Made by a program: the position numbers and the translations under genes. Shown piece after piece: positions 1,548 to 44,784 of a stretch of 64,000 nucleotides of DNA. Position 1 is the stretch's first letter. Each line of letters begins with the position of its first letter. Origin of the DNA: a virus; the IMG/VR virus record IMGVR_UViG_3300013006_000023, positions 1-64,000 of that record. One strand, written 5' to 3'. The notes below the pieces were generated by a model that saw only the letters and a program-made list of their open reading frames with translations, searched no databases and had not been told where the DNA came from.

Positions 1548-3044
1548 TTAGAAGTAGACGGCTTGTGTTCCAGGCGTAAATGCTACACCGAGACCAGACA
1601 CAATGATAACGTGATAATAAAGATTCGCACCAAAGATGTTATCTACAACACCATAACGGGTTAATAGACCAACACGAGGTGAGAAATCATTAGGACCAAT
1701 CGTTCTCTGCACCATGACCGGAATATATGGACAATAGATGATACCAGTGTCATAGAATTCAGGACCCTTGTAACCAAGGAGTGCATACTCAAGACGAGGC
1801 GGGGTACGAGTGGTACCGGCAGGGAACGGGCCCTTACCAGCATAGTTACCACCTGCACCAGCTTCAAATTGAGCTTCTGTGCGTGTGTCACGATAAACAT
1901 TAAAACGACCACCAAGCGAGCCTACCTTTGCGACACCAACTGGCTGAGTGTTAACATTGCCTTGGACCGGTACCCACTGAAATTCAGGGAGCATTTCCAA
2001 GATGGCGCAAACACGAGGCGTACCAACAATAAAGTTAGCAGCACCACGACGATTGCGAACAGCAATTCTGTTAGCCTCAACAATTAGTCTCTGATAGAAG
2101 TCACGATTACGTTCAACGAGCCAGCGACCATCTGCAGAAGCAGGAGACCAGACTGAGAAGCCTGTTCCTAATCCGGCATTAAGGGCGGTTTGGATCATAC
2201 GAATAATCATTTCGCGATCAATTTCGGCCTGCAACTCATACGACATAGCGTTGGTGAGTTCGGTATCGATATCGATGCCATTCATATTCTTAAGATCCTG
2301 CTCTAACTCTACAGACCAGCGGGCTGAAAGTCTACGAGTTCCTGCTTCAACAGCAGTCTTTTCGAAACTCACAACAACCTGCGGAATCTTTGAAGTTAGC
2401 TCAAACTGACTGAGCAATTGTGCAACACCTTGATCCTGCGGCAACATTGCAAAATACGAGTTACCGGAAAGAGTTCCGGCAGACGTACCAGTGAAGCGCG
2501 TATCGAGGTATTGATAGCCCAACTCGGCACCAGATGATTGTGCAGCAGCAGGTGAGGCATTATCGGAACTTCCGAGTGAGCCGTCGCCGCCGTTGACCTG
2601 TGTACCGAGGGATGAACCTTCGTACTTATATCTTAAAGCAAAAGCAAGACCTACTGGGCCGCTCATGGGTTGCACACCAACGATTTCGTTAGTGATCAAC
2701 TCAGGAAACGTACGGCGAATCATGGGAATGAGGATCTTAGGGAGACGAGCATCGCCAGCAGCGTATGCGGAGTCATTCTGCGAAGGGAACTGGTTACCAT
2801 AGTAACCGGCGCCAGCAGCAGGACCACCAAATACATTGCTTGTGCCACCAGCAACGTTGCTGGCTTCAAAACACCACTTCTCTTGGTTTTCCAGGAGGAT
2901 GGCGGTGTTTAAGCGAGTGTGATCGTCTTCAATTGCGCGAACGTTATCTGAGGAGTAATCCAATACTGGACCCCACTTCTCGAGAAGAACCTTAGCGCGT
3001 GACTCATCAATGTAAGCCTGTGTAGGACGGATTTGTTTTGACAT
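1548..3044 (-). CDS. 23: Major capsid protein gp23
   Basis: Major head subunit of 498 residues (T4 gp23 is 521). The N-terminal segment resembles the T4 propiece and contains a likely gp21 cleavage point at CFE|ASNVAGG (Glu60/Ala61). The following region includes GVQPMSGPVGLAFALRY, matching the conserved T4 segment around GVQPM. A clear Shine-Dalgarno sequence (AAGGA, complement of 3057-3061) sits 12 bases upstream of the ATG, unlike most late genes here. It is last in the block gp20, connector candidate, gp4, gp21, core, scaffold, capsid, and a strong terminator follows. The glycine-rich arm after the cleavage site is imitated by a 78-residue protein at 33131. Confidence 0.95.
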   Translation of the reverse strand: MSKQIRPTQAYIDESRAKVLLEKWGPVLDYSSDNVRAIEDDHTRLNTAILLENQEKWCFEASNVAGGTSNVFGGPAAGAGYYGNQFPSQNDSAYAAGDARLPKILIPMIRRTFPELITNEIVGVQPMSGPVGLAFALRYKYEGSSLGTQVNGGDGSLGSSDNASPAAAQSSGAELGYQYLDTRFTGTSAGTLSGNSYFAMLPQDQGVAQLLSQFELTSKIPQVVVSFEKTAVEAGTRRLSARWSVELEQDLKNMNGIDIDTELTNAMSYELQAEIDREMIIRMIQTALNAGLGTGFSVWSPASADGRWLVERNRDFYQRLIVEANRIAVRNRRGAANFIVGTPRVCAILEMLPEFQWVPVQGNVNTQPVGVAKVGSLGGRFNVYRDTRTEAQFEAGAGGNYAGKGPFPAGTTRTPPRLEYALLGYKGPEFYDTGIIYCPYIPVMVQRTIGPNDFSPRVGLLTRYGVVDNIFGANLYYHVIIVSGLGVAFTPGTQAVYF

Positions 3045-4000: not shown

Positions 4001-5185
4001 TTAAAATATTTTGTTGTTTAGAGAATTCTCAATCCTTTCTTTTAACTTAGAACTGATGATGCTCTCTAAATATTTATTGGCTTCAGCGTAATTTTTTTGT
4101 GATATATTGTGAATAAATTTTACTATATCTGAAGATTCCTTAATCTTCTTTTTCTTTTTCTTTTTTCTATCTTCTTCATCTTCACCTTTAATAGCCCCTT
4201 TTATTTCCTTAACTGCACCGGGAGCAGCACCACCAATGAGACCACCAAGAGCAGCGGCACCAGCCGTTCCACCCATTAACCCGCCAGCTACGGCACCAAG
4301 AGTACCTGTGGCCAAGCCTTCCTTAGCTATAATCTTTTTTTTCTTTTTCTTTGACTCTTCCATCTCATTATTATTTATTGGCTTATTACCATTTTTCTGC
4401 TGTAATTTTTTATTAATAGCTTTAGCAGCTAAATCTGTCCCAGCTTGTAAAGCTATTTGTCGTGCAATTGCTGGGGCTAGTGCGTTTGCTCCTGCTGCTA
4501 AAGCTCCTACAAATTCTTTTACAACTTCTGGTTGCATTGACTCCATAGCTGTAAGAAGATATGTATCGAGAGTATCATCATCTTTTAATCCATACTTCTT
4601 TTTAATAGTTTCTCTATCCTTGTCAACTGAAGTCGATCGGCCGTAAAAAATATCTTGTGCCGCGGGATCAGCTTTTATCTTGTTTATTGTGTCTTTGGAT
4701 AATGATGTGGATGTCGACGAAGATGGAGCCACTGGCGAGGATGCAGTTACTGGTGATGCTGGTTTGGTGGCAGTTCCTGCAGTGGGAGTAGTTAACACAG
4801 GCGGGGTTGCTCCTGGAGCTGCTGCTGTGGGTGTGGCGGGTGATGCAGCTGTGCGTGCAGCAGGTGATGATGCAGAACTATTGGACAGCATGTTAATCAC
4901 AGAGTCAGGTATGTCAATATTAAATCTTTTTTTGAAAACATCTTTTGCAACTGCTGGTCCCACTTGTTTAATAACAGGAGCTAATGCGTTAATCAAAGAG
5001 CTGCCTATTTGTCCTGCAGAGCTACTAATCTTAGAAATGGTATCTGGATTTTTTGATACAAATTTACCAACTTGTTTGCCAAGTTTGTTTGCTTTGTACA
5101 ATGCTGCCCCACCAAGAGTTGCAGCAAGAGCTCCTTTGCCAAGCGCACCAAAGTTTACTTCGTTGACCAAATTACCATTCTTCAT
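4001..5185 (-). CDS. Prohead core protein, gp67-like C-terminus
   Basis: A 394-residue protein of unusual build. Residues 13-32 and about 285-330 are Gly/Ala-rich and hydrophobic, residues about 105-165 are an Ala/Pro/Thr/Ser linker, and there are two lysine runs. The last 50 residues (IKESSDIVKFIHNIS onward, ending NNKIF) resemble the short prohead-core protein gp67, whose T4 version begins with a similar helical segment. It lies between gp21 and gp22, close to where T4 carries 67 and 68. It overlaps gp21 by 4 bp. A late motif inside the gene (4372-4379) precedes an in-frame ATG at 4363, so a shorter C-terminal form of 120 residues may also be made. The long hydrophobic part has no T4 counterpart I know. 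Confidence 0.75.
   Translation of the reverse strand: MKNGNLVNEVNFGALGKGALAATLGGAALYKANKLGKQVGKFVSKNPDTISKISSSAGQIGSSLINALAPVIKQVGPAVAKDVFKKRFNIDIPDSVINMLSNSSASSPAARTAASPATPTAAAPGATPPVLTTPTAGTATKPASPVTASSPVAPSSSTSTSLSKDTINKIKADPAAQDIFYGRSTSVDKDRETIKKKYGLKDDDTLDTYLLTAMESMQPEVVKEFVGALAAGANALAPAIARQIALQAGTDLAAKAINKKLQQKNGNKPINNNEMEESKKKKKKIIAKEGLATGTLGAVAGGLMGGTAGAAALGGLIGGAAPGAVKEIKGAIKGEDEEDRKKKKKKKIKESSDIVKFIHNISQKNYAEANKYLESIISSKLKERIENSLNNKIF
4372..4379 (-). promoter_or_regulatory. Intragenic late promoter motif AATAAATA
   Basis: It lies inside the gp67-like gene, 8 bases before the in-frame ATG at 4363 (MEESKKKK). It could drive a separate transcript for the lysine-rich C-terminal third. 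Confidence 0.45.
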
Positions 5186-5853
5186 ACAGTTTTAAGCACT
5201 TTGAAGAAGCTAATAATCTGTTCCTTTAAATAGTCCTGAACATCTTTTCTGGGCAAATTCAAAAGTGAACGCTCGAAATTACTATAAACTTCTTCAAGAT
5301 ATTTGTCGTCTTTCAATACAAACTGTTTGCTTTCTAGAATTCCATTAACGAAAGCTTTGGGGCACGACGGATCAGCCACACAATCAATGGCTACCAGTCT
5401 CATGTCTGTAACACGGTTGATACCACCTGCTTCTTCATTCAATTTCCCTAGAGCGCGGCTTGACATGCCCACTCTAACACCATCATTGATTAAAGATCTG
5501 ACAATCTGACCCATGGGGGTGGACAATACTTGGCTCCTGCCCATGACGTAATTGTTTTCAACTTTAAGATTTGTAACAATGTGACATGCTCTCTCTAAAT
5601 CTACCTCAGCGCTTGTGGGATGATTCAATTCACCCATGGCTCTTTTGGGTTCAACCATTTCCTTTACATAGCGGTTTACTTCCTTGACCATGTCATCTTT
5701 AGAATAAATTCTTTGGTTTTTATTAACCGTTTCATACATCATGTATGGCCCTTGAATAAATAATTTGGCCGCTCCTTTAGAATTTTTTTCTTCTAGAATA
5801 TATTCAAATTGTTCTTCTGGTGCAGGTGTTTCGACTAATAATCTATATGCCAT
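5182..5853 (-). CDS. 21: Prohead maturation protease gp21
   Basis: Serine protease that cleaves scaffold, capsid and internal proteins during head maturation. At 223 residues it is close to T4 gp21 (212). The conserved GELNHP (His78) and GMSSRA (Ser131/Ser132) segments are the catalytic His and Ser regions of this family. Its own N-terminus (MAYRLLVETP) contains LVE, a possible self-cleavage site. A late motif AATAAATA lies 5 bases before the start. The stop overlaps the core-protein start by 4 bp. Its expected cleavage rule, after (L/I)xE, is what links many small late proteins elsewhere in this window. Confidence 0.93.
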   Translation of the reverse strand: MAYRLLVETPAPEEQFEYILEEKNSKGAAKLFIQGPYMMYETVNKNQRIYSKDDMVKEVNRYVKEMVEPKRAMGELNHPTSAEVDLERACHIVTNLKVENNYVMGRSQVLSTPMGQIVRSLINDGVRVGMSSRALGKLNEEAGGINRVTDMRLVAIDCVADPSCPKAFVNGILESKQFVLKDDKYLEEVYSNFERSLLNLPRKDVQDYLKEQIISFFKVLKTV

Positions 5854-22454: not shown

Positions 22455-22618
22455 TTCTTAAGTTTATTTATAAAACTACCCACAATAATATACACCTTTT
22501 CAACATCCAACCCTTTGCCATCAGTAAGTTCATTTATCCATTGCTCGACAGTAAACTTGTCTGTCATTTCTGATTCTTTCTGTTTCTCTGGACCATTGAC
22601 AAATTCTGTAAACTTCAT
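22451..22618 (-). CDS. Small hypothetical protein
   Basis: A 55-residue acidic protein (MKFTEFVNGPEKQKESEM and a helical tail ending INKLKK). I place the start at the ATG 22618, which overlaps the queE stop as ATGA; a longer version from a TTG at 22639 is less likely. Its stop overlaps the kinase start (4 bp). I do not recognise it. Confidence 0.6.
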   Translation of the reverse strand: MKFTEFVNGPEKQKESEMTDKFTVEQWINELTDGKGLDVEKVYIIVGSFINKLKK

Positions 22619-23367
22619 ACCTTTAAAGCTTTGTCCCAAATTACAAGCTGTAGTCGCGGACTGAAATTAAAATTATACTTCTTGCAAAGATCAGCAACAA
22701 CATGAGCTTTTTCTGAATGCTCAGCTCTGCTACCACAACAAGGCATCAACCAAATACGATCAGTAGGCACTTTGCATTCATAAACATACTTTTCTAATAT
22801 TTCTCTGACTTCCGGCTCACCACTAACAACAAACTTAAACCCTGATCGGTTTTTAGCATGCCATTTCAATACTTCAGGTTTATATCTCTTTTCAACAGGA
22901 TCGCCATTGTTACTTAGCTTTGGTGATGTTGTGAATGTAGCCTTCCAATCAAGCCATTGCTGATCAGGCATGATGGTTGCATTGGTTTCAAAATCAATCT
23001 TCGGTATATAACCAAATCTAAAAATATATTGGTCGACAAGCTCCAGTAACACTTTTTGTTGTATAAGAGGCTCACCACCTGTAATTTTCCAGATTGCACC
23101 ATCGCGCAAGCGACACTGATATCCATTTTGTGTTATGAAGTCAAAGACTTCATTATATGTCATTCTATTTTTCACAGTCCAGCTAACAAAGCTATCACAA
23201 CCATTAGGTGAATCAGCAGATGCGAATCCTTTGCAAGTAAGATTGCACATGGATAAGCGCATAAACACAGAAGGCCGACCCACATACTCACCTTCACCTT
23301 CAATTGTATAGAAGATTTTATCATCACTCAGAAAGATGGTTGGACTGCTCGGTGGTGCTTTTTCCAT
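22615..23367 (-). CDS. queE: 7-carboxy-7-deazaguanine synthase QueE (radical SAM)
   Basis: Converts 6-carboxytetrahydropterin to 7-carboxy-7-deazaguanine, the third step of preQ0 synthesis. It has FYTIEGEGEYVGRPSVFMRL at the N-terminus, the radical-SAM cysteines, and the SAM-binding WKITGGEP. The cluster cysteines are spaced C41-x3-C45-x11-C57 (residues counted from ATG 23367) instead of the usual C-x3-C-x2-C. I prefer this ATG over a TTG at 23400 because the longer form would overlap rmlB by 26 bp and adds no conserved residues. The length (250 residues) is usual. It is downstream of rmlB and upstream of the 55-residue gene. Confidence 0.9.
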   Translation of the reverse strand: MEKAPPSSPTIFLSDDKIFYTIEGEGEYVGRPSVFMRLSMCNLTCKGFASADSPNGCDSFVSWTVKNRMTYNEVFDFITQNGYQCRLRDGAIWKITGGEPLIQQKVLLELVDQYIFRFGYIPKIDFETNATIMPDQQWLDWKATFTTSPKLSNNGDPVEKRYKPEVLKWHAKNRSGFKFVVSGEPEVREILEKYVYECKVPTDRIWLMPCCGSRAEHSEKAHVVADLCKKYNFNFSPRLQLVIWDKALKV

Positions 23368-23374
23368 AAGATGA

Positions 23375-24331
23375 TTATAAACTATTTTTATAGAAATCAA
23401 TAGTCTTTTCTAAGCCCATGTCAAAATCTGTACTGGGTGACCAGCCTAACATTTGTTCTATCTTATTGCTATCAATAAAATATTTAAAATCATGTCCTTT
23501 TCTGTCTTCAACAAAACAAATTAAGGATTCATCTTTCTTGAGTATGCTTAAAACCTTTTTTACCATGGATATATTGCTAATGGTATTTGCTGTGCCAATG
23601 TTGTATGTGTTACCAGGTAGGCCTTGCTGCATCACTTTGACAATTGCTTCACAGTGATCTTTAACATATATCCATTCCCTGACATTATCACCTTCACCAT
23701 AAACAGGTATTGCATGATTTGCAAGTGCATTAATTATGACTTTGGGTAGTAATTTTTCCTTGTTCTGTCTTTCGCCATAATTATTACAGCATCTGGTTGT
23801 GCAGGTATTAAGTTTATATGTTTTAAAATAACTATTCACCAGGAGGTCTGAAGATGCTTTTGTTGACGAATATACAGAACTTGGATTAAGAATATCTGTC
23901 TCTTTGAATCCAGCATTGTTGAGTTCATTTTTTTCAATTGCACCATACACTTCATCAGTACTCACATGCACAAATTTCTTAACACCCTTGTGCCTAGCAA
24001 GCTCTAACATATTAAACGTACCCAGAACATTGGTTAGAACAAAGATCTCAGGTCTATTAATACTATTATCAACATGTGATTCAGCTGCTAAGTGAATCAC
24101 GTAATCAATGTCATTGAGGTATGGTGTTATGCATTTGGTTTGTTCATTGTTGGATATATCCACCTTGTGGAAGAACACTCTTTTGTCATGACTCATTTTA
24201 TTCTTGAAAATGAGGTCTGCAGCATAGGTCTCATTATCTAAGCAATGTATATTTGCATCTGTTCTTTGCAAAAGAACTTCAATCAAGTGTGAACCAATGA
24301 ATCCTAAGCCTCCAGTAACAATAATATTCAC
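23375..24331 (-). CDS. rmlB: dTDP-glucose 4,6-dehydratase-like RmlB
   Basis: A 318-residue extended SDR enzyme: NAD-binding GGLGFIGSH (7-15), HLAAESHVDNS (80-90), STDEVYG (124-130) and the catalytic Y154-x3-K158. The ESHVD and RxxNNYG-type (CCNNYGERQ) segments are specific to dTDP-glucose 4,6-dehydratases, which make the 4-keto-6-deoxy sugar used for rhamnose, fucosamine and others. It starts at GTG 24331. An RmlD-like reductase lies at 52380; RmlA and RmlC are not seen in the window. The product may feed the glycosyltransferase operon. Confidence 0.88.
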   Translation of the reverse strand: MNIIVTGGLGFIGSHLIEVLLQRTDANIHCLDNETYAADLIFKNKMSHDKRVFFHKVDISNNEQTKCITPYLNDIDYVIHLAAESHVDNSINRPEIFVLTNVLGTFNMLELARHKGVKKFVHVSTDEVYGAIEKNELNNAGFKETDILNPSSVYSSTKASSDLLVNSYFKTYKLNTCTTRCCNNYGERQNKEKLLPKVIINALANHAIPVYGEGDNVREWIYVKDHCEAIVKVMQQGLPGNTYNIGTANTISNISMVKKVLSILKKDESLICFVEDRKGHDFKYFIDSNKIEQMLGWSPSTDFDMGLEKTIDFYKNSL

Positions 24332-25127: not shown

Positions 25128-25820
25128 TTACACACCCCAAGAAGTTCCACCAAAAAGATTGCCATAACCTGTAGAAACATTTGATCTGCCCACATTTGCA
25201 GGTCTGGGTTGACCAGGCGCCCCACCAGCTGGAGGTGGGTTCTTGATCACATTAGTTAAATCGACGCCGGTTGTTTCTTTGACTTGTTCTAAAAAGTCTA
25301 TAGATTGGTTGACTTGTGGTATGTGGACTGGCACATTGTTAATTTCAACTGTATTGTTGTTTTGTTTTGTAACGTTATCATTTGCAAAGCAAACAATTGC
25401 AGAATTTTTATCATGTTCCCACACTTCAACCTTGTCCACCCAGCATCTGTTGTTAGTAATGCCTCTCACATGTCCATCAGCCACATCAAAACACCATTCG
25501 GCCGTCCTTTCAATACCTACACCTTTGGTCATTACGCGTAAATCTGCAGCACCACTGGCATGTAATTGTTCAAATAGAGGCAGCAATGGATCATCACCTG
25601 AAATGCATAAGGTATGGTCAAATTGCTTTTCAAAAACAGCCTTTAATTCCTTTAGTCCACCAAAGTCTACTACCCAATTCTTATCATCTAATGCATTGCA
25701 ACCAAACCAAAGCTTTGCAACTAACCTGTATCCATGTACAAATTTGCAATGACTACTAGCTCTCCATTGTCTAAATGCACAACTTCCAAGTTCAAAAATC
25801 TTAGTAGATGAAAAATTCAT
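25128..25820 (-). CDS. queD: 6-carboxytetrahydropterin synthase-like QueD
   Basis: A 230-residue member of the 6-pyruvoyl-tetrahydropterin synthase superfamily, the second step from FolE product towards preQ0. The core has CAFRQWRASSHCKFVHGYRL, WVVDFGGLKELK and FDHTLCISGDDPLL. Two of the three usual zinc-ligand positions are changed: the first His is Phe (CAF) and the HGH motif is HGY. An additional His (SHC) nearby may compensate. Residues from about 150 to 230 are an extension with Pro/Gly/Asn-rich sequence unrelated to QueD. It converges with phoH. With FolE, QueE and QueC present, a QueD role is the best reading. Confidence 0.82.
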   Translation of the reverse strand: MNFSSTKIFELGSCAFRQWRASSHCKFVHGYRLVAKLWFGCNALDDKNWVVDFGGLKELKAVFEKQFDHTLCISGDDPLLPLFEQLHASGAADLRVMTKGVGIERTAEWCFDVADGHVRGITNNRCWVDKVEVWEHDKNSAIVCFANDNVTKQNNNTVEINNVPVHIPQVNQSIDFLEQVKETTGVDLTNVIKNPPPAGGAPGQPRPANVGRSNVSTGYGNLFGGTSWGV

Positions 25821-27138: not shown

Positions 27139-27798
27139 ATGTTAAAGAATAAACGTAATTTACCGTATGCCAATCATAACCAGCCTGTAACTGAAGAAGA
27201 GAAGAAAGACATTATTGATAGAGCTGCCAAAGCATATGAAGCATACATGGATGCATTGGGGTATGACTGGAGAAATGATCCTAACAGCAACAATACACCA
27301 CATCGCGTGGCAAAAGCTTTTGTTGAGGATTTTGCATGGGGGTGTTACAGCCTGCCACCCAAAATCACAGCTTTTGATAATGTAGACAAATATGATGGCA
27401 TAGTTGCACAAACAAACATCAAGGTCACTTCATTATGCTCACATCATCATGCACCATTTACCGGGTTTGCTCATGTTGCCTATATACCCTCTAAATCTGG
27501 CAAGGTCATTGGGTTAAGCAAATTGAATCGCGTGGTTGATTGGTTTTCACGCAGACCACAAGTACAAGAGAATCTCACAATGCAAATTCATGATTATATC
27601 AACATTATTTGCGAGAAGAATAACGGTGTTGCAGTAATGATTGAGGCAGGCCATACTTGTTGCGCAAACCGTGGCATAAGACATGATTCAACAATGAGAA
27701 CTGCCAGAATGTCTGGCACGTTTTTGGATAACAAGGATAACTCTCGCGCTGAATTCTACAAGTTTGTCGAATTTGCTCAGAACAGAAAACTCACGTAA
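27139..27798 (+). CDS. folE: GTP cyclohydrolase I FolE
   Basis: Converts GTP to 7,8-dihydroneopterin triphosphate, the first step of deazaguanine synthesis. In 219 residues it shows TSLCSHHHAPF (Cys100, His102-103; zinc and catalysis), VAYIPSKSGKVIGLSKLNR, RRPQVQENLT and EAGHTCCANRGI (zinc Cys174 or 175). Length is normal for a bacterial enzyme. Its own early-type promoter precedes it, and it converges on the late gene at 27799 with no spacer. Confidence 0.95.
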   Translation: MLKNKRNLPYANHNQPVTEEEKKDIIDRAAKAYEAYMDALGYDWRNDPNSNNTPHRVAKAFVEDFAWGCYSLPPKITAFDNVDKYDGIVAQTNIKVTSLCSHHHAPFTGFAHVAYIPSKSGKVIGLSKLNRVVDWFSRRPQVQENLTMQIHDYINIICEKNNGVAVMIEAGHTCCANRGIRHDSTMRTARMSGTFLDNKDNSRAEFYKFVEFAQNRKLT

Positions 27799-28200
27799 TC
27801 ATTGCTTGTTCACATCAATCACTGCATTCAATTGTTTCAGAAAAGGTTCACCCACAAGTATTGGATCTTCATTTTCTGATCGATCTGCTATGCTGAACGG
27901 TATATTCTTATAATCTTTACCATTTATTCTTATGTTAAGATTCACAATGGGTCTGTCTTCCTTTACACCGCTGCCAATGTGTATCTTTATATCACCACTC
28001 TTTGGTGCTTGGAATTTCTTATTCCCAACTGTTGTAAATGATACAGTCTCACCCTCTTCCGATACATCCACACCATGCAGAACATTGTATGCCTCATTAC
28101 CACTATCAATTTTTGCTTTAATCTTGCCAAGCCCTTCAACGTCAATATATTCATTAACACCCAATATAACCTTATTATAATATTCTTTGAAATTATCCAT
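27799..28200 (-). CDS. Retropepsin-like aspartic protease-fold protein
   Basis: A 133-residue protein with KAKIDSGNEAYNVLHG (D32-S33-G34, the D-(S/T)-G active-site triplet) and DRSENEDPILVGEPFL near the C-terminus. This pattern belongs to small retropepsin-like proteins such as the RimK-associated (PF05618) family (D-T-G-A...; D-R...P-x-L-x-G-x-x-F-L). The first 14 residues (MDNFKEYYNKVILG) look like the capsid-targeting helices of its neighbours but lack a clear LxE. The late motif AATAAATA at 28228-28235 is 27 bases upstream. Dimerisation would be needed for activity if it works as retropepsins do. Confidence 0.6.
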   Translation of the reverse strand: MDNFKEYYNKVILGVNEYIDVEGLGKIKAKIDSGNEAYNVLHGVDVSEEGETVSFTTVGNKKFQAPKSGDIKIHIGSGVKEDRPIVNLNIRINGKDYKNIPFSIADRSENEDPILVGEPFLKQLNAVIDVNKQ

Positions 28201-28268: not shown

Positions 28269-28907
28269 ATGTTTGCAAGAGATTACAACACATTAAATGA
28301 ACTGTATGATACGAAAATTATCAAAGAAAATGTAGGCCTAGGCCCGCTAGCAGACAACAACAATACTACACCTAGTAACACACAAGCAGTAAGAATTAAG
28401 ATGCCACCCAAAAGAACCTGCGGTGAAAATGAAGAGCATTGTGCTTATGCTGCACAAGGTTGTGAATGTGGTGAATGTAGTGAATGTGCACACTCTGAGA
28501 GCTCCTCAGAAGATTGTGAAGGATACGATCCATCATCATACGATAGTAACGGTAAAATGGCAAGACAATTGCTTTTCAGAGTTCATAAACTTTCTGCCAT
28601 GCTTCACGATTTATTAAACAATAAAGACAATATTGAAGCCTGGGTGTTGAGTAAAATTACAAATGCACATGATCAGATAGCATCAGTATTTGGTTATGAA
28701 GATTATGAAGCTGCACTCAATTCAAATCATGGAATGTGTGGTGATAATTTAGAAGAGAATAATGAAGAAGAGCTTTTTAAGAGAATTGATGCAGGTGGAC
28801 TTGACATTCTTGATTTATTAAAATCAAAACTTAGCAGAGAATCAAAAGAGACATTAGAGAAGGTGTTGCTTGAAACAATTATTTTGTTAGAGAAGAAGTC
28901 TAAATAA
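28269..28907 (+). CDS. Late protein with Cys cluster and a phage helical domain
   Basis: A 212-residue protein starting MFARDYNTLNELYDTKIIKE. A middle stretch holds eight closely spaced cysteines (CGENEEHCAYAAQGCECGEC, then SECA and EDC), a possible metal site. The following domain (MARQLLFRVHKLSAMLHDLL, then IEAWVLSKITNAHDQIASV) resembles a helical unit I have seen in virion proteins of marine T4-like phages (x-W-V-x-S-K-I-T-x-A). It is the only plus-strand late gene in this minus-strand cluster and it converges with the nucleotidylyltransferase (8-bp overlap). Confidence 0.6.
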   Translation: MFARDYNTLNELYDTKIIKENVGLGPLADNNNTTPSNTQAVRIKMPPKRTCGENEEHCAYAAQGCECGECSECAHSESSSEDCEGYDPSSYDSNGKMARQLLFRVHKLSAMLHDLLNNKDNIEAWVLSKITNAHDQIASVFGYEDYEAALNSNHGMCGDNLEENNEEELFKRIDAGGLDILDLLKSKLSRESKETLEKVLLETIILLEKKSK

Positions 28908-29553
28908 GTTTCTTATTAAATAGATCAAAAATCCTTGGATCAAACTTACCTATAATTTGCGCTATATATTCTTTTCTCTGTTGGTCGTTGGCCGATTTGT
29001 ACATGTTCCTTAGTTCTGTTGCACTGGATATGCTCTTTCCACCCACATTGAATTGCACTGTGCCAGGAGAAAAAATGTATCCATGTCCGCCATCTTGCTT
29101 GAAGGGTACCATATCACTTAGACTTACAAATGGCTGAAAATATGTAGGGCGGCCGTCTCTTGTTACACCAAATTTAAATCTTGGATCTTCCTTCATATCC
29201 TTCTCTCCAACAGCATAAACTGCTTTGGCAACATTCTGGTCATAATCATTTAAAATTTCTATGGGTTTGTAAGGTTGCTTAACCTGCACTATCTCATGAC
29301 TGGGTACACCTGCTGCTTCCATGATTTGTTTTTTCTCTTGAAAGCTAAATGGATATCTACTTGCATCGTCTGTCTTCTGTGGAGCATCTGAGGTAGCTAT
29401 AAAAAAATCAGCTCCTGGAAATTGCTTCTTGGCCATATCAAAGAATTTCTTGTGACCAATGTGAAATGGCTGAAATCTGCCTGGAAAAATAACTATAAGA
29501 TTATTTTTTTGGTGCTGCAGCACTTCACTAATATATTGTTTAAATGTTTTCAT
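28900..29553 (-). CDS. HxGH nucleotidylyltransferase with capsid-targeting N-terminus
   Basis: A 217-residue protein. The N-terminus MKTFKQYISEVLQHQKNN is very close to the T4 internal-protein targeting peptide (MKTYQEFIAEA type), with ISE|V as the possible cut. The rest is a cytidylyltransferase-fold enzyme: IFPGRFQPFHIGHKKFF (HxGH at about 31-34) and KSISSATELRNMY (ISS-x-x-x-R). Such enzymes transfer a nucleotidyl group, for example to NMN, pantetheine phosphate or sugars; the substrate cannot be told here. Last gene of the four-gene late operon from 32105; it overlaps the ligase-like gene by 4 bp. Confidence 0.78.
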   Translation of the reverse strand: MKTFKQYISEVLQHQKNNLIVIFPGRFQPFHIGHKKFFDMAKKQFPGADFFIATSDAPQKTDDASRYPFSFQEKKQIMEAAGVPSHEIVQVKQPYKPIEILNDYDQNVAKAVYAVGEKDMKEDPRFKFGVTRDGRPTYFQPFVSLSDMVPFKQDGGHGYIFSPGTVQFNVGGKSISSATELRNMYKSANDQQRKEYIAQIIGKFDPRIFDLFNKKLI

Positions 29554-30755
29554 GCTCTTGGTGTCAGCACATTTGCTGAGCCTTCCATGCCATAAGGCGG
29601 GTTTGTTTGATAGTTCATTCTATTACCTACTGTGTTAATATTCTTCAACTCACTTGTAACATTGCTCTCTTCTTCAGATTTTTTCTGAGCAAACTTACCA
29701 GCTTCTTTACCAGTAATAAAATTGCCGGTAATCTTTACTGGGTTATTCGATATGGATGCATCGCGTACTACTATACCTTCTTGTGTATTCAAAGAGCCAA
29801 GGTCTGATGTAGCCGCATCCTTAATGGCCTGTCCAAGTGAGATAGTAGCTTGATAAAAAACAGCACCATCAATTACTGTTTGCATTGATTTTTCATCATT
29901 AACATACAAATCCAATGGCATGCTGCTCGAAACATTCTTATAATTCTCCAAACTCATAGCTGCTATTGTTCTTCCGGACTTAAGCTTAATTTTTTCATTG
30001 CGCGGATTTTTTGCTGTTGCAAGCCATTCACTAAGAGGCTTTGTTACTATATTTTTTGTATTGTAAGCAACTGTAAAAGGACTACGTAATGCAACGTTTA
30101 GATTCATATTATTTAACTTTATAGTGAACTCATGCTCCACATCAAAACCTTGTTTCTTTGCTATGGGATTTATTTTATCTATCAATGTTAACAAAGCATT
30201 TTTATCAAATGATATCTCTCTGGATGCTCTGCTCATACTGCCACGCACCGGGCTCTTCACACTAATAATTTCATTCAACCCATGAATTGCAAGAAAATTA
30301 TTTGCATATCCAACCACATTGGTCTCACCTTTAACATATTCCATGTTAAATAAAATTTTATCATTGTCCCACATGCCCAACTTCTTCAGATCCTGCTCTA
30401 TAGAAGGAATTGCTGTGTTAAAGATATTTAAAACAGTGGCTCCTATGGTGAGCATTCCATGACCTGCCGGAAACCTGCCAGCAAGTCTGCCCACTGTTAC
30501 ACCAGCCACATCTTCAGGCTTATTTGAACCTCTATCAAGAGCAAATTCTTTTTGATCTTCTTCATTGTTGATGAGTCTAATGGATGCATTAATGCCATCA
30601 ATCTTTAATGAAGCAGGTGTCTTAGCCAAGCTTTTTATTATTTTATTAAAGATGTTAATTAAATTTTTACCAGTATTTGCTTCTGGTAGATCAAATGGAT
30701 GTGCCATATGCCCTGCTACCCCGCCTTCTAATAAGAACTGCTTAAACGTTATCAT
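29550..30755 (-). CDS. Ligase/capping-type nucleotidyltransferase-like protein with targeting N-terminus
   Basis: A 401-residue protein that starts MITFKQFLLEGGVAGHMAHP, where LLE|G fits gp21 cleavage. Motifs of the covalent nucleotidyltransferases (DNA/RNA ligase, capping enzyme) follow in order: motif I K51-I-D-G54 in SLKIDGINASIRL, FALDRGS, FNMEYVKGE (motif III-like, Glu139), EGIVVRD (motif IV, about 326-332) and a weaker motif V at VKITGNFITGK. If active, Lys51 would carry AMP. The middle region 150-320 is unlike classic ligases. It overlaps the nuclease-like gene by 14 bp and has its own AAAGGA-like Shine-Dalgarno. Confidence 0.65.
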   Translation of the reverse strand: MITFKQFLLEGGVAGHMAHPFDLPEANTGKNLINIFNKIIKSLAKTPASLKIDGINASIRLINNEEDQKEFALDRGSNKPEDVAGVTVGRLAGRFPAGHGMLTIGATVLNIFNTAIPSIEQDLKKLGMWDNDKILFNMEYVKGETNVVGYANNFLAIHGLNEIISVKSPVRGSMSRASREISFDKNALLTLIDKINPIAKKQGFDVEHEFTIKLNNMNLNVALRSPFTVAYNTKNIVTKPLSEWLATAKNPRNEKIKLKSGRTIAAMSLENYKNVSSSMPLDLYVNDEKSMQTVIDGAVFYQATISLGQAIKDAATSDLGSLNTQEGIVVRDASISNNPVKITGNFITGKEAGKFAQKKSEEESNVTSELKNINTVGNRMNYQTNPPYGMEGSANVLTPRA

Positions 30756-31668
30756 TATTCCTTTTTTTACGCGACTTATTATTCAACAAATGCATTAAAA
30801 TTTTCTTTACATCTTGAGGGGATTCCAGATTCAAATTGCTTGGCGCAAGGTCATAAGATTGTAATTTAGGTGTTATGCGATATAAGGCAGTTCTTATACG
30901 AATAGGTGCACCTTTGTATGTGATGCTTCTGCTGCCGTTTGGACCTAATCTACATTCTATTGTGCATATGCCTTTGAATTCTGGTACACCTATGCCTTGA
31001 ATATCTGTACCCAAATAGTAAAGTCCCAACCCACCAATTTGAATATAATAACAATCCTTACTATTGTAGTGTTTGATAATAGTACTCACATCATTATTTT
31101 TTAAACGCACGTTAAGATCACTTAGTAAACCTTCCTGAGCTGCTTTGTCCCATGCTGTTACTGCTATCTTTCCTGTTGGTGCACGATACTGTAATGCAGA
31201 ATGTAATTCAATTGGATCACACTTCTTTATATATTCTATGTATGCTTGAAGTGCAGGTAATCTGCTTTGTGCTGCTTTTGTTACAAAGGGCAAAACAGCT
31301 GAATCTACACTGCTTGCATCAACAATTTCTACTTTACCAGTTGTTGCATCCATTCGCACAGATGTTGAACCCATTTGAGCATCCCTATTCATCTTCACTT
31401 CAACGTTGAACGGTGCACCATCTGCTTCAATACGCACATCAGCTCCGACATTACTAAAAGCACTTCCTCTGCGATTTATCTTGACTTTTGATAATGAAAA
31501 ATCCTCAATAACACTCTGAATTAATTGTGTAATCTTATGCTCATATACTGCACCACCCATGCCAGCCTTCTCCCTGTGCAACACATCATGAGCAGGTAAG
31601 AGTGGTACCTCTCTTGCGAAAGTCTCAGCAAGGTACACATCACTCAAACTTTTGTAATTTTTACTCAC
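30742..31668 (-). CDS. PD-(D/E)XK nuclease-like protein with targeting-like N-terminus
   Basis: A 308-residue protein. The N-terminus MSKNYKSLSDVYLAETFAR has LAE|T as a candidate cut. The nuclease-fold signature is GADVRIEADGAPFNVEVKMN (Asp77, Glu90, Lys92), preceded by a conserved YEHKITQLIQ helix with Glu43, as in Holliday-junction- and restriction-type PD-(D/E)XK proteins. It lies 4 bp into the end of the first operon gene. A role as a DNA nuclease acting on the host chromosome or on the phage's own DNA is inferred. Confidence 0.6.
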   Translation of the reverse strand: MSKNYKSLSDVYLAETFAREVPLLPAHDVLHREKAGMGGAVYEHKITQLIQSVIEDFSLSKVKINRRGSAFSNVGADVRIEADGAPFNVEVKMNRDAQMGSTSVRMDATTGKVEIVDASSVDSAVLPFVTKAAQSRLPALQAYIEYIKKCDPIELHSALQYRAPTGKIAVTAWDKAAQEGLLSDLNVRLKNNDVSTIIKHYNSKDCYYIQIGGLGLYYLGTDIQGIGVPEFKGICTIECRLGPNGSRSITYKGAPIRIRTALYRITPKLQSYDLAPSNLNLESPQDVKKILMHLLNNKSRKKRNNDNV

Positions 31669-32105
31669 GACTTGACATCATTACTATATCTCTTCATTGC
31701 AGATAAAATTTGTTTATACTTTGCCATAAAATTATCCTCATTAATTGTATCAACAAATTGCTTAAAATGAGGATTGTCCAATCTCTCTGGATTATCTTCA
31801 TAGTTTAAGTTCTGACTTATGGCCTCTTGCAAGCCTTCTCTAATGTTCTCAACATTTTCACGTGTAATGGTAGTTGTAAAGAGTGTGTCAATAGAACCAG
31901 ATGGTATATTCATTATCAAGGCTTTTGCGAGAAGCCTGACTAGATCCACGTATCCTTCTGGTGGCAGAGCCTGTGGTGGTGTCTTTATCTGCGGATTGAC
32001 TGCCGGATCTTCATTTGGAGCAGGGGTAGTTGCATCCTGGGGGTTAGGCTCTCCAACAGCTTCAAATACTGACATGTATGCTTCAATTTTTTTACTAAAA
32101 CTCAT
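31665..32105 (-). CDS. Late protein, first gene of the virion-enzyme operon
   Basis: A 146-residue protein: MSFSKKIEAYMSVFEAVGE (VFE|A candidate), a Pro/Ala/Asn-rich linker to about residue 50, then a helical domain with IREGLQEAISQNLNYEDN. A perfect late promoter (TATAAATA, 32111-32118) lies 5 bases upstream, and the next gene starts inside its stop (4-bp overlap). I do not recognise the family. It may be a carrier or partner of the three enzymes encoded downstream. Confidence 0.65.
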   Translation of the reverse strand: MSFSKKIEAYMSVFEAVGEPNPQDATTPAPNEDPAVNPQIKTPPQALPPEGYVDLVRLLAKALIMNIPSGSIDTLFTTTITRENVENIREGLQEAISQNLNYEDNPERLDNPHFKQFVDTINEDNFMAKYKQILSAMKRYSNDVKS

Positions 32106-32110
32106 ATGTT

Positions 32111-32118
32111 TATTTATA
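32111..32118 (-). promoter_or_regulatory. Perfect T4 late promoter TATAAATA of the virion-enzyme operon
   Basis: An exact match, 5 bases before the ATG at 32105. It heads the chain 32105 to 28900. Confidence 0.8.
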
Positions 32119-32689: not shown

Positions 32690-33121
32690 TCAGTATAAAT
32701 GTTTATTTTGTTCTATCAAGCTTTTTGGTGGCCGGCCAATTCTTACATTCATTATACCATTATAATATTCATCGCTTAACAATACCCCCCTGTTTATTTG
32801 TTCCTTTATTTCAAAATATGCCAACTCCCACTTTGATCCACATATTTTAATTATTTCAAAAGTAAAGCTGTTCTTTCCAAGCTTTATAATGTCTTCATTC
32901 AACTCAACTGAGCTGCTTGTATAAGCTCTCCAATCTGTTTCCTTTACTTCAATTCTCTTGTTCCTCTTGCCCTTGAGAGGTTTTCTCTTGTATTTCGTTT
33001 TGCACTGCTTCTTACCTATATACTTTCTGTTATTAGTATTATTTGTAATTTCATATATAAAGCCAAAAGCCTCATCACTTAATATGACATTCTCTCTTAA
33101 AATCCAATGACCTGTATCCAT
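32690..33121 (-). CDS. GIY-YIG endonuclease-like protein
   Basis: A 143-residue protein with GFIYEITNNTNNRKYIGKKQ (GIY...YIG at about 20-37) and ELAYFEIKEQI containing the expected catalytic Glu about 60 residues later. T4-like phages carry many such free-standing endonucleases; the short variants with YIGKK are widespread. It has no intron nearby. It could be a homing endonuclease or a domesticated nuclease. No late motif precedes it. Confidence 0.8.
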   Translation of the reverse strand: MDTGHWILRENVILSDEAFGFIYEITNNTNNRKYIGKKQCKTKYKRKPLKGKRNKRIEVKETDWRAYTSSSVELNEDIIKLGKNSFTFEIIKICGSKWELAYFEIKEQINRGVLLSDEYYNGIMNVRIGRPPKSLIEQNKHLY

Positions 33122-33130
33122 AAAGTTATA

Positions 33131-33367
33131 CTATAAACCTGCAAAAGATCTTCTTTTTAATTTTGTTTTTTTCTTTTTCTTGCCAAACGGCCATCTAGAA
33201 TCACCAGGTGCATATGCTAAATCGTTTTGTGAAGGGAATTGATTGCCATGGCTGCCGGCTGGGCCACCAGCACCTGTACCAAATACACCTTCAGCTCCTC
33301 CGGCGACATTCATATCTTCTAATAGTGCTCTATTAAATGCGTCTTCAAAATTTAGTATGGATTTCAT
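33131..33367 (-). CDS. Small head protein imitating the mature N-terminal arm of gp23
   Basis: A 78-residue protein: MKSILNFEDAFNRALLED with LLE|D as cut site, then a Gly-rich segment (residues 20-60) that copies the region just after the gp23 cleavage point, sharing NVAGG, VFG, GNQFPSQND, AYA and GD. It ends in a lysine/arginine tail (FGKKKKKTKLKRRSFAGL). The expected mature product would be a basic peptide with a capsid-like arm, probably binding the inner shell or DNA. CATAAATA lies 15 bases upstream of the ATG. Confidence 0.75.
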   Translation of the reverse strand: MKSILNFEDAFNRALLEDMNVAGGAEGVFGTGAGGPAGSHGNQFPSQNDLAYAPGDSRWPFGKKKKKTKLKRRSFAGL

Positions 33368-42953: not shown

Positions 42954-44069
42954 ATGAATAAAGATCTCAAACAAGTATTTGCTTCTCTAGATAAGCTCAA
43001 CAGTGAAGCTTCCATGTTAAATGAAAATGCACTTAGTAAAGTGGATGAATGGTTTGATACAGGTTGCTATGCTCTCAACGCCATTCTAGGTGGCAGCTGC
43101 CGTAGTGGTGGTGTACCTAAAGGTAGAATCATAGGATTCTCAGGACCTAGCCAAACTGGCAAAACATTCATTGTTAACAAGATATTGGCCAGTGCACAAA
43201 AGAAAGGGTTAACCCCTGTTATTTTTGATACTGAAATAGCCATCGATGAAAACAGTACCAAAGGCGTCGGACTGGATGCTGAAAATACAAAATATGTTCC
43301 TGTGGATACTATTGATCAATGCAGAAATCAAATTGCTGCATTCCTGGATAGCGTCATTGAAAACAATGCAAAAGGTAAGTTTATTATCAGCATTGATAGC
43401 TTGGGTAACCTTGCTTCTCAGAAAGAACTGGATGATATTGTCAAAGACAAATCGGCTACAGATATGGGTCTTCGTGCCAAATCTCTCAAGAGTTTGTTTC
43501 GCACCCTCACATTCAAAGCTGCAAAAGCTGGTGTGACCATTTTGTTTACAAACCATACGTATGAAGATCCAGGCTCCATGTACCCGACACTGGTCAAGAG
43601 TCAAGCAGGCGGCTCTGGCCCTGTTTATATGTCCAGTATTTTGGTGCAATTAGCCAAGCGCAATGAAAAAGAAGGTGAAGGAGATTCAATGGATGCAGAC
43701 GATAAAAAGATTGCTGAAGCTAACAAATACTCAGGAACAACTCTTCGAGCTCTAACTGTAAAAAATCGATTCATTCCTCCATTCCTTGAAGCAGAGATGT
43801 ATCTTTCCTTCAAGACAGGTTTAAACAAATACAGTGGTCTACTTGCCATGGCAGCTGCACGTGGCATTGTTGAGCAAGCTGGCGCCACATATTCTGTGGG
43901 CATCACATCAGGCAAGTACAAGAAGGGTGATAAGCTTGGTTATGCCAAGACTTTTGCCAAAGATCCTTTATTTTACGAAGAATTTATTATACCTGAATTA
44001 GACAAACGTCTTGTATTAGATTACCAGTATAACTCTAATGAAGCGCAAGCAGAAGAGCCCATCCAGTAA
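42954..44069 (+). CDS. uvsX: Recombinase UvsX (RecA-like)
   Basis: A 371-residue strand-exchange protein: Walker A GPSQTGKT (64-71), VIFDTEIAIDENS, FIISIDSLGNL (Walker B) and a loop region with TLVKSQAGGSGPVYMSS. T4 UvsX is 391 residues. It drives recombination-dependent replication with UvsY and gp32. Its last 32 bp overlap queC. Confidence 0.95.
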   Translation: MNKDLKQVFASLDKLNSEASMLNENALSKVDEWFDTGCYALNAILGGSCRSGGVPKGRIIGFSGPSQTGKTFIVNKILASAQKKGLTPVIFDTEIAIDENSTKGVGLDAENTKYVPVDTIDQCRNQIAAFLDSVIENNAKGKFIISIDSLGNLASQKELDDIVKDKSATDMGLRAKSLKSLFRTLTFKAAKAGVTILFTNHTYEDPGSMYPTLVKSQAGGSGPVYMSSILVQLAKRNEKEGEGDSMDADDKKIAEANKYSGTTLRALTVKNRFIPPFLEAEMYLSFKTGLNKYSGLLAMAAARGIVEQAGATYSVGITSGKYKKGDKLGYAKTFAKDPLFYEEFIIPELDKRLVLDYQYNSNEAQAEEPIQ

Positions 44070-44784
44070 AGTCGTAGTGCCCGTCAGTGGTGGCATGGAT
44101 AGCAGTGTTCTGTTGCATTTTGCTGCTAGCAAGTATGACAAAGTAATTGCAGTTAATTATGACTACGGTCAAAAACACCGTGATAAGGAACTCAATTGTG
44201 CATCATTTCAAATTGAATCGGTTGACACACCGATTGATAGTCTACATTTAAAATTACCGTTTTTTAAAGATATATGTCAAGTTTCTTCACTCCTTAATAA
44301 TAAAGTTGCTGTTGCCAAGGCTAAAGATGTAATGGGTGATCCACAGACTGTAAACTATGTTCCATACAGAAACTTAATGTTACTTAGCATTTCATTGGCC
44401 ATTGCAGAAAATTATCAGGCCAGCACTGTTTTTCATGGTGCGGCTCAAGCCGATAGTGTAGCGGGGTTTTGGGATGGCAGTGAAGAATTTTTGGAGCAAA
44501 TTAATAATGTATCGGCTTTGAATCGTAGAAATAAAATTACAGTTGCAGCACCATTGATTGACAAATCAAAGCAAGAAATCATAAAGCTCGGTATGAAGCT
44601 TGGTGTCGATTTTAGTCAGACTTGGACCTGTTACGAGGGTGAAGAGCAAGCCTGTGGTGAATGTACTGCATGCTCATTGCGCATCAAGGGCTTCATGGAT
44701 GCTGGGTACATAGACCCTGTTTCATATAAAATCTCATTACCCTGGAACAAATACAACTGCAAACCTATCAGTCGCTGTAACTAA
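44038..44784 (+). CDS. queC: 7-cyano-7-deazaguanine synthase QueC
   Basis: Uses ATP and ammonia to turn 7-carboxy-7-deazaguanine into preQ0. PVSGGMDSSVLLH is the N-type ATP pyrophosphatase P-loop (SGGMDS 17-22); YVPYRNLMLLSISLAIAE and the zinc site C198, C206, C209, C212 (TWTCYEGEEQACGECTAC) complete the family pattern. It is translated from within the end of uvsX, so it is expressed with the recombination genes, away from folE, queD and queE. Confidence 0.95.
   Translation: MKRKQKSPSSKVVVPVSGGMDSSVLLHFAASKYDKVIAVNYDYGQKHRDKELNCASFQIESVDTPIDSLHLKLPFFKDICQVSSLLNNKVAVAKAKDVMGDPQTVNYVPYRNLMLLSISLAIAENYQASTVFHGAAQADSVAGFWDGSEEFLEQINNVSALNRRNKITVAAPLIDKSKQEIIKLGMKLGVDFSQTWTCYEGEEQACGECTACSLRIKGFMDAGYIDPVSYKISLPWNKYNCKPISRCN

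Follow-up and report, generated by a model that had tools for sequence, protein, structure and literature searches.

A putative capsid-loaded enzyme kit in an uncultured T4-like phage, with nuclease-like bodies exchanged behind a constant leader

The 64,000 nucleotides analysed here (the window) are positions 1 to 64,000 of virus record IMGVR_UViG_3300013006_000023 and form part of a 107,651-base record of a T4-like myovirus, in which strong E-values identify gp23, gp20, the terminase and the gp21 prohead protease. An operon of four genes in the window, called CAR, PDX, LIG and NT below, probably makes a late, capsid-loaded and protease-matured enzyme kit that is delivered to the next cell. 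A new observation, which the first-pass annotation does not have, is that the nuclease body of PDX is replaced behind a constant leader in near-identical sister phages, six unrelated bodies having been seen so far. The features of the operon are as follows, with an arrow at predicted cuts.

32111 to 32118, minus strand: late promoter octamer TATAAATA, 5 nt ahead of the start codon of CAR, the first gene
31665 to 32105, minus strand: CAR, 146 residues, with a leader of about 15 residues ending VFE↓A and a conserved C-terminal helical part
30742 to 31668, minus strand: PDX, 308 residues, PD-(D/E)XK-like, with a GTG start
31570 to 31668, minus strand: constant 33-residue leader of PDX (YKSLSDVYLAETFAREVPLLP...LHRE), common to unrelated nuclease-like bodies in relatives
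29550 to 30755, minus strand: LIG, 401 residues, nucleotidyltransferase of the ligase/capping superfamily by its motifs
30726 to 30755, minus strand: predicted 10-residue capsid-targeting propeptide of LIG, MITFKQFLLE↓GG, from T4 spacing and conservation
28900 to 29553, minus strand: NT, 217 residues, HxGH nucleotidylyltransferase, NadM/NMNAT-like by profile match
29524 to 29553, minus strand: predicted 10-residue capsid-targeting propeptide of NT, MKTFKQYISE↓V, from T4 spacing

The first-pass annotation had described four overlapping genes headed by an octamer, and the open frames and TATAAATA (32118-32111, minus strand) are both present, as are the residues it had named, namely D77, E90 and K92 of PDX, KIDG at K51 of LIG and FHIGH in NT. 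The genes overlap by 4 bases (CAR/PDX), 14 bases (PDX/LIG) and 4 bases (LIG/NT).

From the sequences and their motifs, from conservation and fusions, and from the cargo swaps and the place of the promoter, we infer that in this phage the proteins are packaged, cut and ejected, on which substrates they act and that the phage benefits, along the following lines. Each protein would be made with an N-terminal address peptide that directs it to the core of the prohead; this peptide would be removed after (L/I)-x-E by the gp21 protease, leaving LIG with a free Gly-Gly, which its family retains. The enzymes would then accompany the DNA into the next cell, where they may have a first-strike role. LIG would adenylylate its Lys51 and most likely seal RNA, whereas NT would make nicotinamide adenine dinucleotide (NAD+) or a related dinucleotide and work with LIG. 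PDX would be a DNA or RNA nuclease, its body exchanged under diversifying selection, that attacks unprotected host or rival nucleic acid or counters defence. The particular jobs first proposed for the enzymes, nicking and repairing entering DNA or nucleotidylating host molecules, gained no support from these data.

Exchange of nuclease-like bodies at the PDX locus

Between CAR and LIG, the relatives have in common a leader of about 33 residues with a mean identity of 59%, followed by bodies whose mean identity of 24% is at or near the background for unrelated proteins, and the flanking genes average 54-76%. At the DNA level, two sister phages (L002 and L003) are 99.2% identical up to the leader, have nothing in common throughout the nuclease body and regain identity, at 97%, precisely at the LIG start codon; a further pair (L007 and L008) displays the same swap pattern at 88-90%. 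Clustered by body, eleven proteins with the leader form seven groups, six of them nuclease-like and one with the leader placed directly on LIG (L009). A Pfam scan of the alternative bodies returned nothing, so it is from GxGE...GD...EVK-type motifs, the one feature that these bodies share, that we would infer them to be nucleases.

PDX itself is a probable nuclease. Its E43, D77, E90 and K92 are unchanged across 13 relatives, and a structural model with a predicted local distance difference test (pLDDT) score of 82.5 has an alpha-beta-beta-beta arrangement with D77 and E90/K92 at predicted strands 78-82 and 85-92. The PD-(D/E)XK assignment made earlier is thereby upheld in its invariant residues and their predicted core, and not in a fold match, none being found in the PDB.

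It is possible, and we advance it tentatively, that the constant cleavable capsid leader is a docking module for interchangeable nuclease warheads, co-delivered with a ligase-NMNAT pair that would become active only once the prohead protease exposes Gly-Gly. Polymorphic toxins and polyvalent proteins likewise join a catalytic part that can be exchanged to a delivery part that is conserved, and are used in conflicts (PMC5512222). Here, however, a short capsid tag that can be cleaved off would serve as the leader, sister phages differ by a swap at a single locus and no immunity gene was identified beside that locus. The swap makes the pre-expression cargo of phages directly testable, and the leaders could be used as they stand to direct proteins into phage heads.

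Elsewhere in the window lie probable preQ0 genes (22615-23400, 25128-25820, 27139-27798 and 44038-44784: QueE-like, QueD, FolE and QueC). Because FolE, QueD, QueC and QueE-like genes are present, the phage DNA may be modified with 7-deazaguanine, which, as a matter of speculation, would let the phage carry a nuclease safely.

Late expression, capsid-targeting tags and prohead protease sites

The octamer TATAAATA occurs in the window at the frequency of chance (5 found, 7.1 expected). NATAAATA stands 5-10 nt before the start codon in 21 of the 116 predicted genes, against 0.2 expected; most of these are head and tail genes, including gp21, sheath and tube. It was found at the start codons of none of the replication genes inspected, where TATAAT-like elements occur instead. 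Given this placement near head and tail gene starts, and given that the position of the element ahead of CAR is kept in several relatives, the operon is most likely late, in agreement with the class first assigned to it. Across the record, -10-like elements lie 5-8 nt before the starts of both late (NATAAATA) and apparently early (TATAAT) genes, with examples at window positions 5853, 32118, 61607 and 63917, and Shine-Dalgarno sequences are few, so leaderless transcripts are likely to be widespread in it.

Internal protein III of T4 needs no more than its first ten residues to be packaged; residues 4 and 7 of the tag govern targeting, residues 8 and 10 govern processing, and gp21 cuts after L/I-x-E (PMC9026906). 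The present phage encodes the corresponding protease, and the two head genes concerned are these.

5182 to 5853, minus strand: gp21-type prohead protease (PF03420, E 3e-33), the expected cutter of the propeptides
1548 to 3044, minus strand: gp23 major capsid protein (PF07068), with a likely gp21 site CFE↓ASNVAGG

The strict T4 spacing of the capsid-targeting sequence ([FY]4, [FYW]7, [LIV]8 and E10 in the first ten residues) is found in LIG and NT only, two of 116 predicted genes, where 0.023 would be expected from internal positions. PDX and CAR have leaders of another type (about 33 residues, and about 15 residues ending VFE↓A) with L/I-x-E-type sites that fit the tag loosely. The targeting-type N-terminus first ascribed to all four proteins therefore stands for LIG and NT, which have the strict tag, and gives way to longer leaders of a different kind in PDX and CAR. 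Since a looser N-terminal pattern was not enriched over the genome (7 of 116 genes against a background of about 5%), strict spacing and conservation alone were used. A gp21-type protease was also found in 7 of 12 related phage records, many of which are incomplete. The general proposal of capsid targeting has been strengthened by the T4-type tags on LIG and NT and by conserved gp21-type sites, and packaging with protease maturation is likely in this phage, with indirect support from those sites, the free-Gly N-terminus and the NT homologue in S-CREM2 virions described below.

The sole conserved [LIVMF]-x-E in an alignment of 14 LIG relatives lies at residue 10. A wider set of 90 distinct relatives from viral contigs was assembled with a search pattern that fixed GHMAHPFD and left the preceding residues free, the residue after the protease site being scored by the pattern [GAST]. 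In 81 of the 90, [LIVMFY]-x-E and then Gly directly precede the GHMxHPFD block, and eight of the remaining nine have Met exactly at the protease-site spot, most with a Shine-Dalgarno-like sequence upstream; in five of these eight the frame is open upstream too, so the start is a putative one. Either E↓GG or Met↓GG is thus present in 89 of 90. Since the protease site and the Met-Gly start are two routes to the same N-terminus, mature LIG probably always begins with a free Gly (Gly-Gly). There are parallel tagless cases, the PDX of P-SSM2 starting M-AGQQGFAYE and the proteins of family DUF6267 (taken up below) in S-CAM9 and S-CRM01 starting without a tag. The same site recurs between the domains of fusions, as LINE↓GG (L018), LITE↓GG (L015) and LLLE↓GG (L098 and L128), and as an IIAE↓GG junction inside the NT-LIG fusion (WWT39297.1) of the isolate Microcystis phage Mel-JY01. 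Such a near-universal N-terminus suggests that a protease activates the enzymes; this would account for their having no need to work in the cell that makes them. Large multi-domain proteins (L120:6002-8326, minus strand; L098; L124; L128) join LIG with Nudix or other domains and carry internal L/I-x-E↓GG sites; they are possible prohead-protease polyproteins.

A close known parallel in delivery is with IPI-IPIII and Alt of T4 (PMC9026906), which resemble the present proteins in propeptide determinants 4, 7, 8 and 10, in the gp21-type L/I-x-E site, in late expression and in cargo that varies between phages. The operon differs from them in having three catalytic folds together, a constant leader with interchangeable nuclease bodies and multi-domain polyproteins with internal sites, and in that its packaging is predicted from genes.

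Enzyme families and relatives in other phages

The motifs I (KxDG), III, IV and V of the ligase/capping superfamily are all present in LIG, and about 75 relatives all keep K51-x-D53-G54, E139, E326-G327-x-V329 and K341-x-T343-G344, which supports the superfamily originally proposed. The AlphaFold model (pLDDT 81, the first 15 residues disordered) retrieves RNA ligases first from the PDB in Foldseek, weakly, with TbREL1 the best (E 0.0098, probability 0.84); from a viral library it retrieves a DNA ligase (E 3.6e-4) and many proteins annotated cytidyltransferase-like. Two relatives of LIG have weak matches to PF09414 RNA_ligase (E 0.029 and 0.078, below the curated cut-off). With Rnl2/REL1-type RNA ligases (PF09414) LIG shares KxDG(x)N in motif I and motifs III, IV and V, and its model comes nearest, if weakly, to TbREL1 and other RNA ligases, but it scores under the Pfam cut-off and has a conserved GG..GHMxHPFD N-terminus and a different middle helical insert. 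In phage records, neither a search for DNA similar to the operon nor tblastn with LIG found any match. Bacterial genomes yielded five LIG matches, several on short contigs of metagenome-assembled genomes, and given how few these are LIG is essentially a virus family.

NT belongs to the HxGH nucleotidylyltransferase superfamily, as had been proposed from its FHIGH motif, with a PF01467 match above cut-off (E 3.2e-9); its nearest named families are the NadM-type nicotinamide mononucleotide (NMN) adenylyltransferases, at scores far below their cut-offs (29 bits against 397). For CAR, profile searches gave no assignable family, which leaves the suggested carrier-like protein unsupported; no support was found for an acyl-carrier idea either.

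Related cassettes, which the first-pass annotation had proposed to look for, were found in other phages. Among relatives, fusions join NT to LIG in either order, and in L039 one joins NT to PDX. Marine contigs carry, one after another, PDX, DUF6267, a small basic protein and NT, with tags on most, and the related cassette of marine T4-like phages has DUF6267 at the position of LIG. DUF6267 (PF19782, phrog_455) of T4-like cyanophages resembles LIG in its KWDG motif, in an HxxHxED block and in the tag of many members, and it adjoins NT and, in some cases, PDX; both families have an HxxHxxD block ahead of motif I. The DUF6267 profile matches LIG at E 1.4e-4 over an N-terminal part that includes the catalytic Lys (HH-suite probability 52%), and LIG against PF19782 gave no match at E up to 1 or 0.5. 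The difference is that homology to LIG covers the N-terminal part, that many members have no propeptide and that the annotation is just hypothetical. The family occurs in 467 phage records, nearly all of cyanophages, and no mention of it was found in papers; the evidence suggests that what these records label hypothetical is a ligase-superfamily enzyme that is delivered and is coupled to an enzyme of NAD type.

Virion data from two cyanophages bear on NT. S-CREM2 gp154, an NT homologue with the N-terminus MKNFSSFLTE↓A, was detected in purified virions by mass spectrometry (PMC10665884), and the NMNAT-like ORF91 of S-SCSM1 was likewise detected in purified virions (PMC9602691); the authors caution that such proteins could be contaminants of CsCl-purified phage. 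These NMNAT-like or cytidylyltransferase virion proteins share HxGH with NT, and the S-CREM2 copy has the capsid-targeting type of N-terminus; they are, however, distant relatives and have not been described in a ligase-nuclease cassette. A further virion-detected protein of S-CREM2, gp156 (L037:8013-8726), has the look of a Pol-beta-type nucleotidyltransferase, judged by eye. A PADLOC search returned nothing relevant.

Alternative roles for the enzymes

Several points weigh against a kit that is loaded and delivered. The phage is uncultured and its packaging is predicted from its genes; PDX and CAR are without the strict 10-residue tag; the PDX fold search against the PDB gave no significant match, that of LIG gave a weak one, and NT falls short of the equivalog-level NMNAT score; and the DUF6267 protein of S-CREM2, which has no propeptide, is absent from the virion list (PMC10665884). 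Moreover, late expression and processing would equally fit a role inside the head. The enzymes could then act within the prohead or while DNA is being packaged, by trimming phage DNA, sealing its nicks or processing its ends, and a nuclease with a ligase could indeed edit packaged DNA. We consider this unlikely, since an NMNAT-type partner and a nuclease body exchanged fast between near-identical phages fit an interaction with host or rivals better, and LIG looks RNA-ligase-like. That the proteins are ordinary cytosolic repair and NAD-salvage enzymes with a coincidental likeness to capsid tags would agree with the homologues that have no propeptide (L019, L105, the PDX of P-SSM2 and DUF6267 of S-CAM9 and S-CRM01); the E↓GG or Met↓GG of 89 of 90 relatives, the sites at fusion junctions, the tag statistics and the virion mass spectrometry of an NT homologue make it very improbable.

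Other alternatives concern what a delivered pair would do. NAD+-dependent DNA ligases carry an NMN-binding part ahead of motif I, and the HxxHxxD block of LIG and DUF6267 at that place, together with the NT-LIG fusions in both orders, could point to an NAD+-dependent LIG whose released NMN is recycled to NAD+ by NT in a closed, ATP-driven ligation cycle. LIG has no sequence match to LigA, however, the substrate of NT is unproven and, to our knowledge, all known RNA ligases use ATP, so that such a cycle seems hardly likely. Somewhat less remote, though still doubtful, is a counter-defence in which NT, once delivered, would replenish NAD+ where immunity depletes it and LIG would mend tRNAs that host nucleases have cut. 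Phage NAD+ reconstitution pathways have been described (PMC12774641), and the NadM-like motifs of NT and the Nudix domain fused to LIG in L120 would be in keeping with such a role, but the surroundings of the operon, to which the search was confined, yielded no NAMPT, Adps or tRNA-kinase partner.

Three neighbours of the operon deserve mention in their own right. A SegE-type GIY-YIG endonuclease (window 32690-33121, minus strand) lies upstream and is conserved in relatives, and a small protein (27799-28200, minus strand) has sub-threshold matches to Pfam Zn_protease and to a retroviral-type aspartyl protease family. Finally, a 78-residue protein (33131-33367, minus strand), conserved in relatives and ending in a basic tail, mimics the N-terminal arm of the phage's own gp23 (1548-3044, minus strand) after a similar protease site, with a score of 136 against a shuffled maximum of 52; the S-CREM2 virion protein gp160 likewise mimics its own capsid protein (score 95, shuffled maximum 51).
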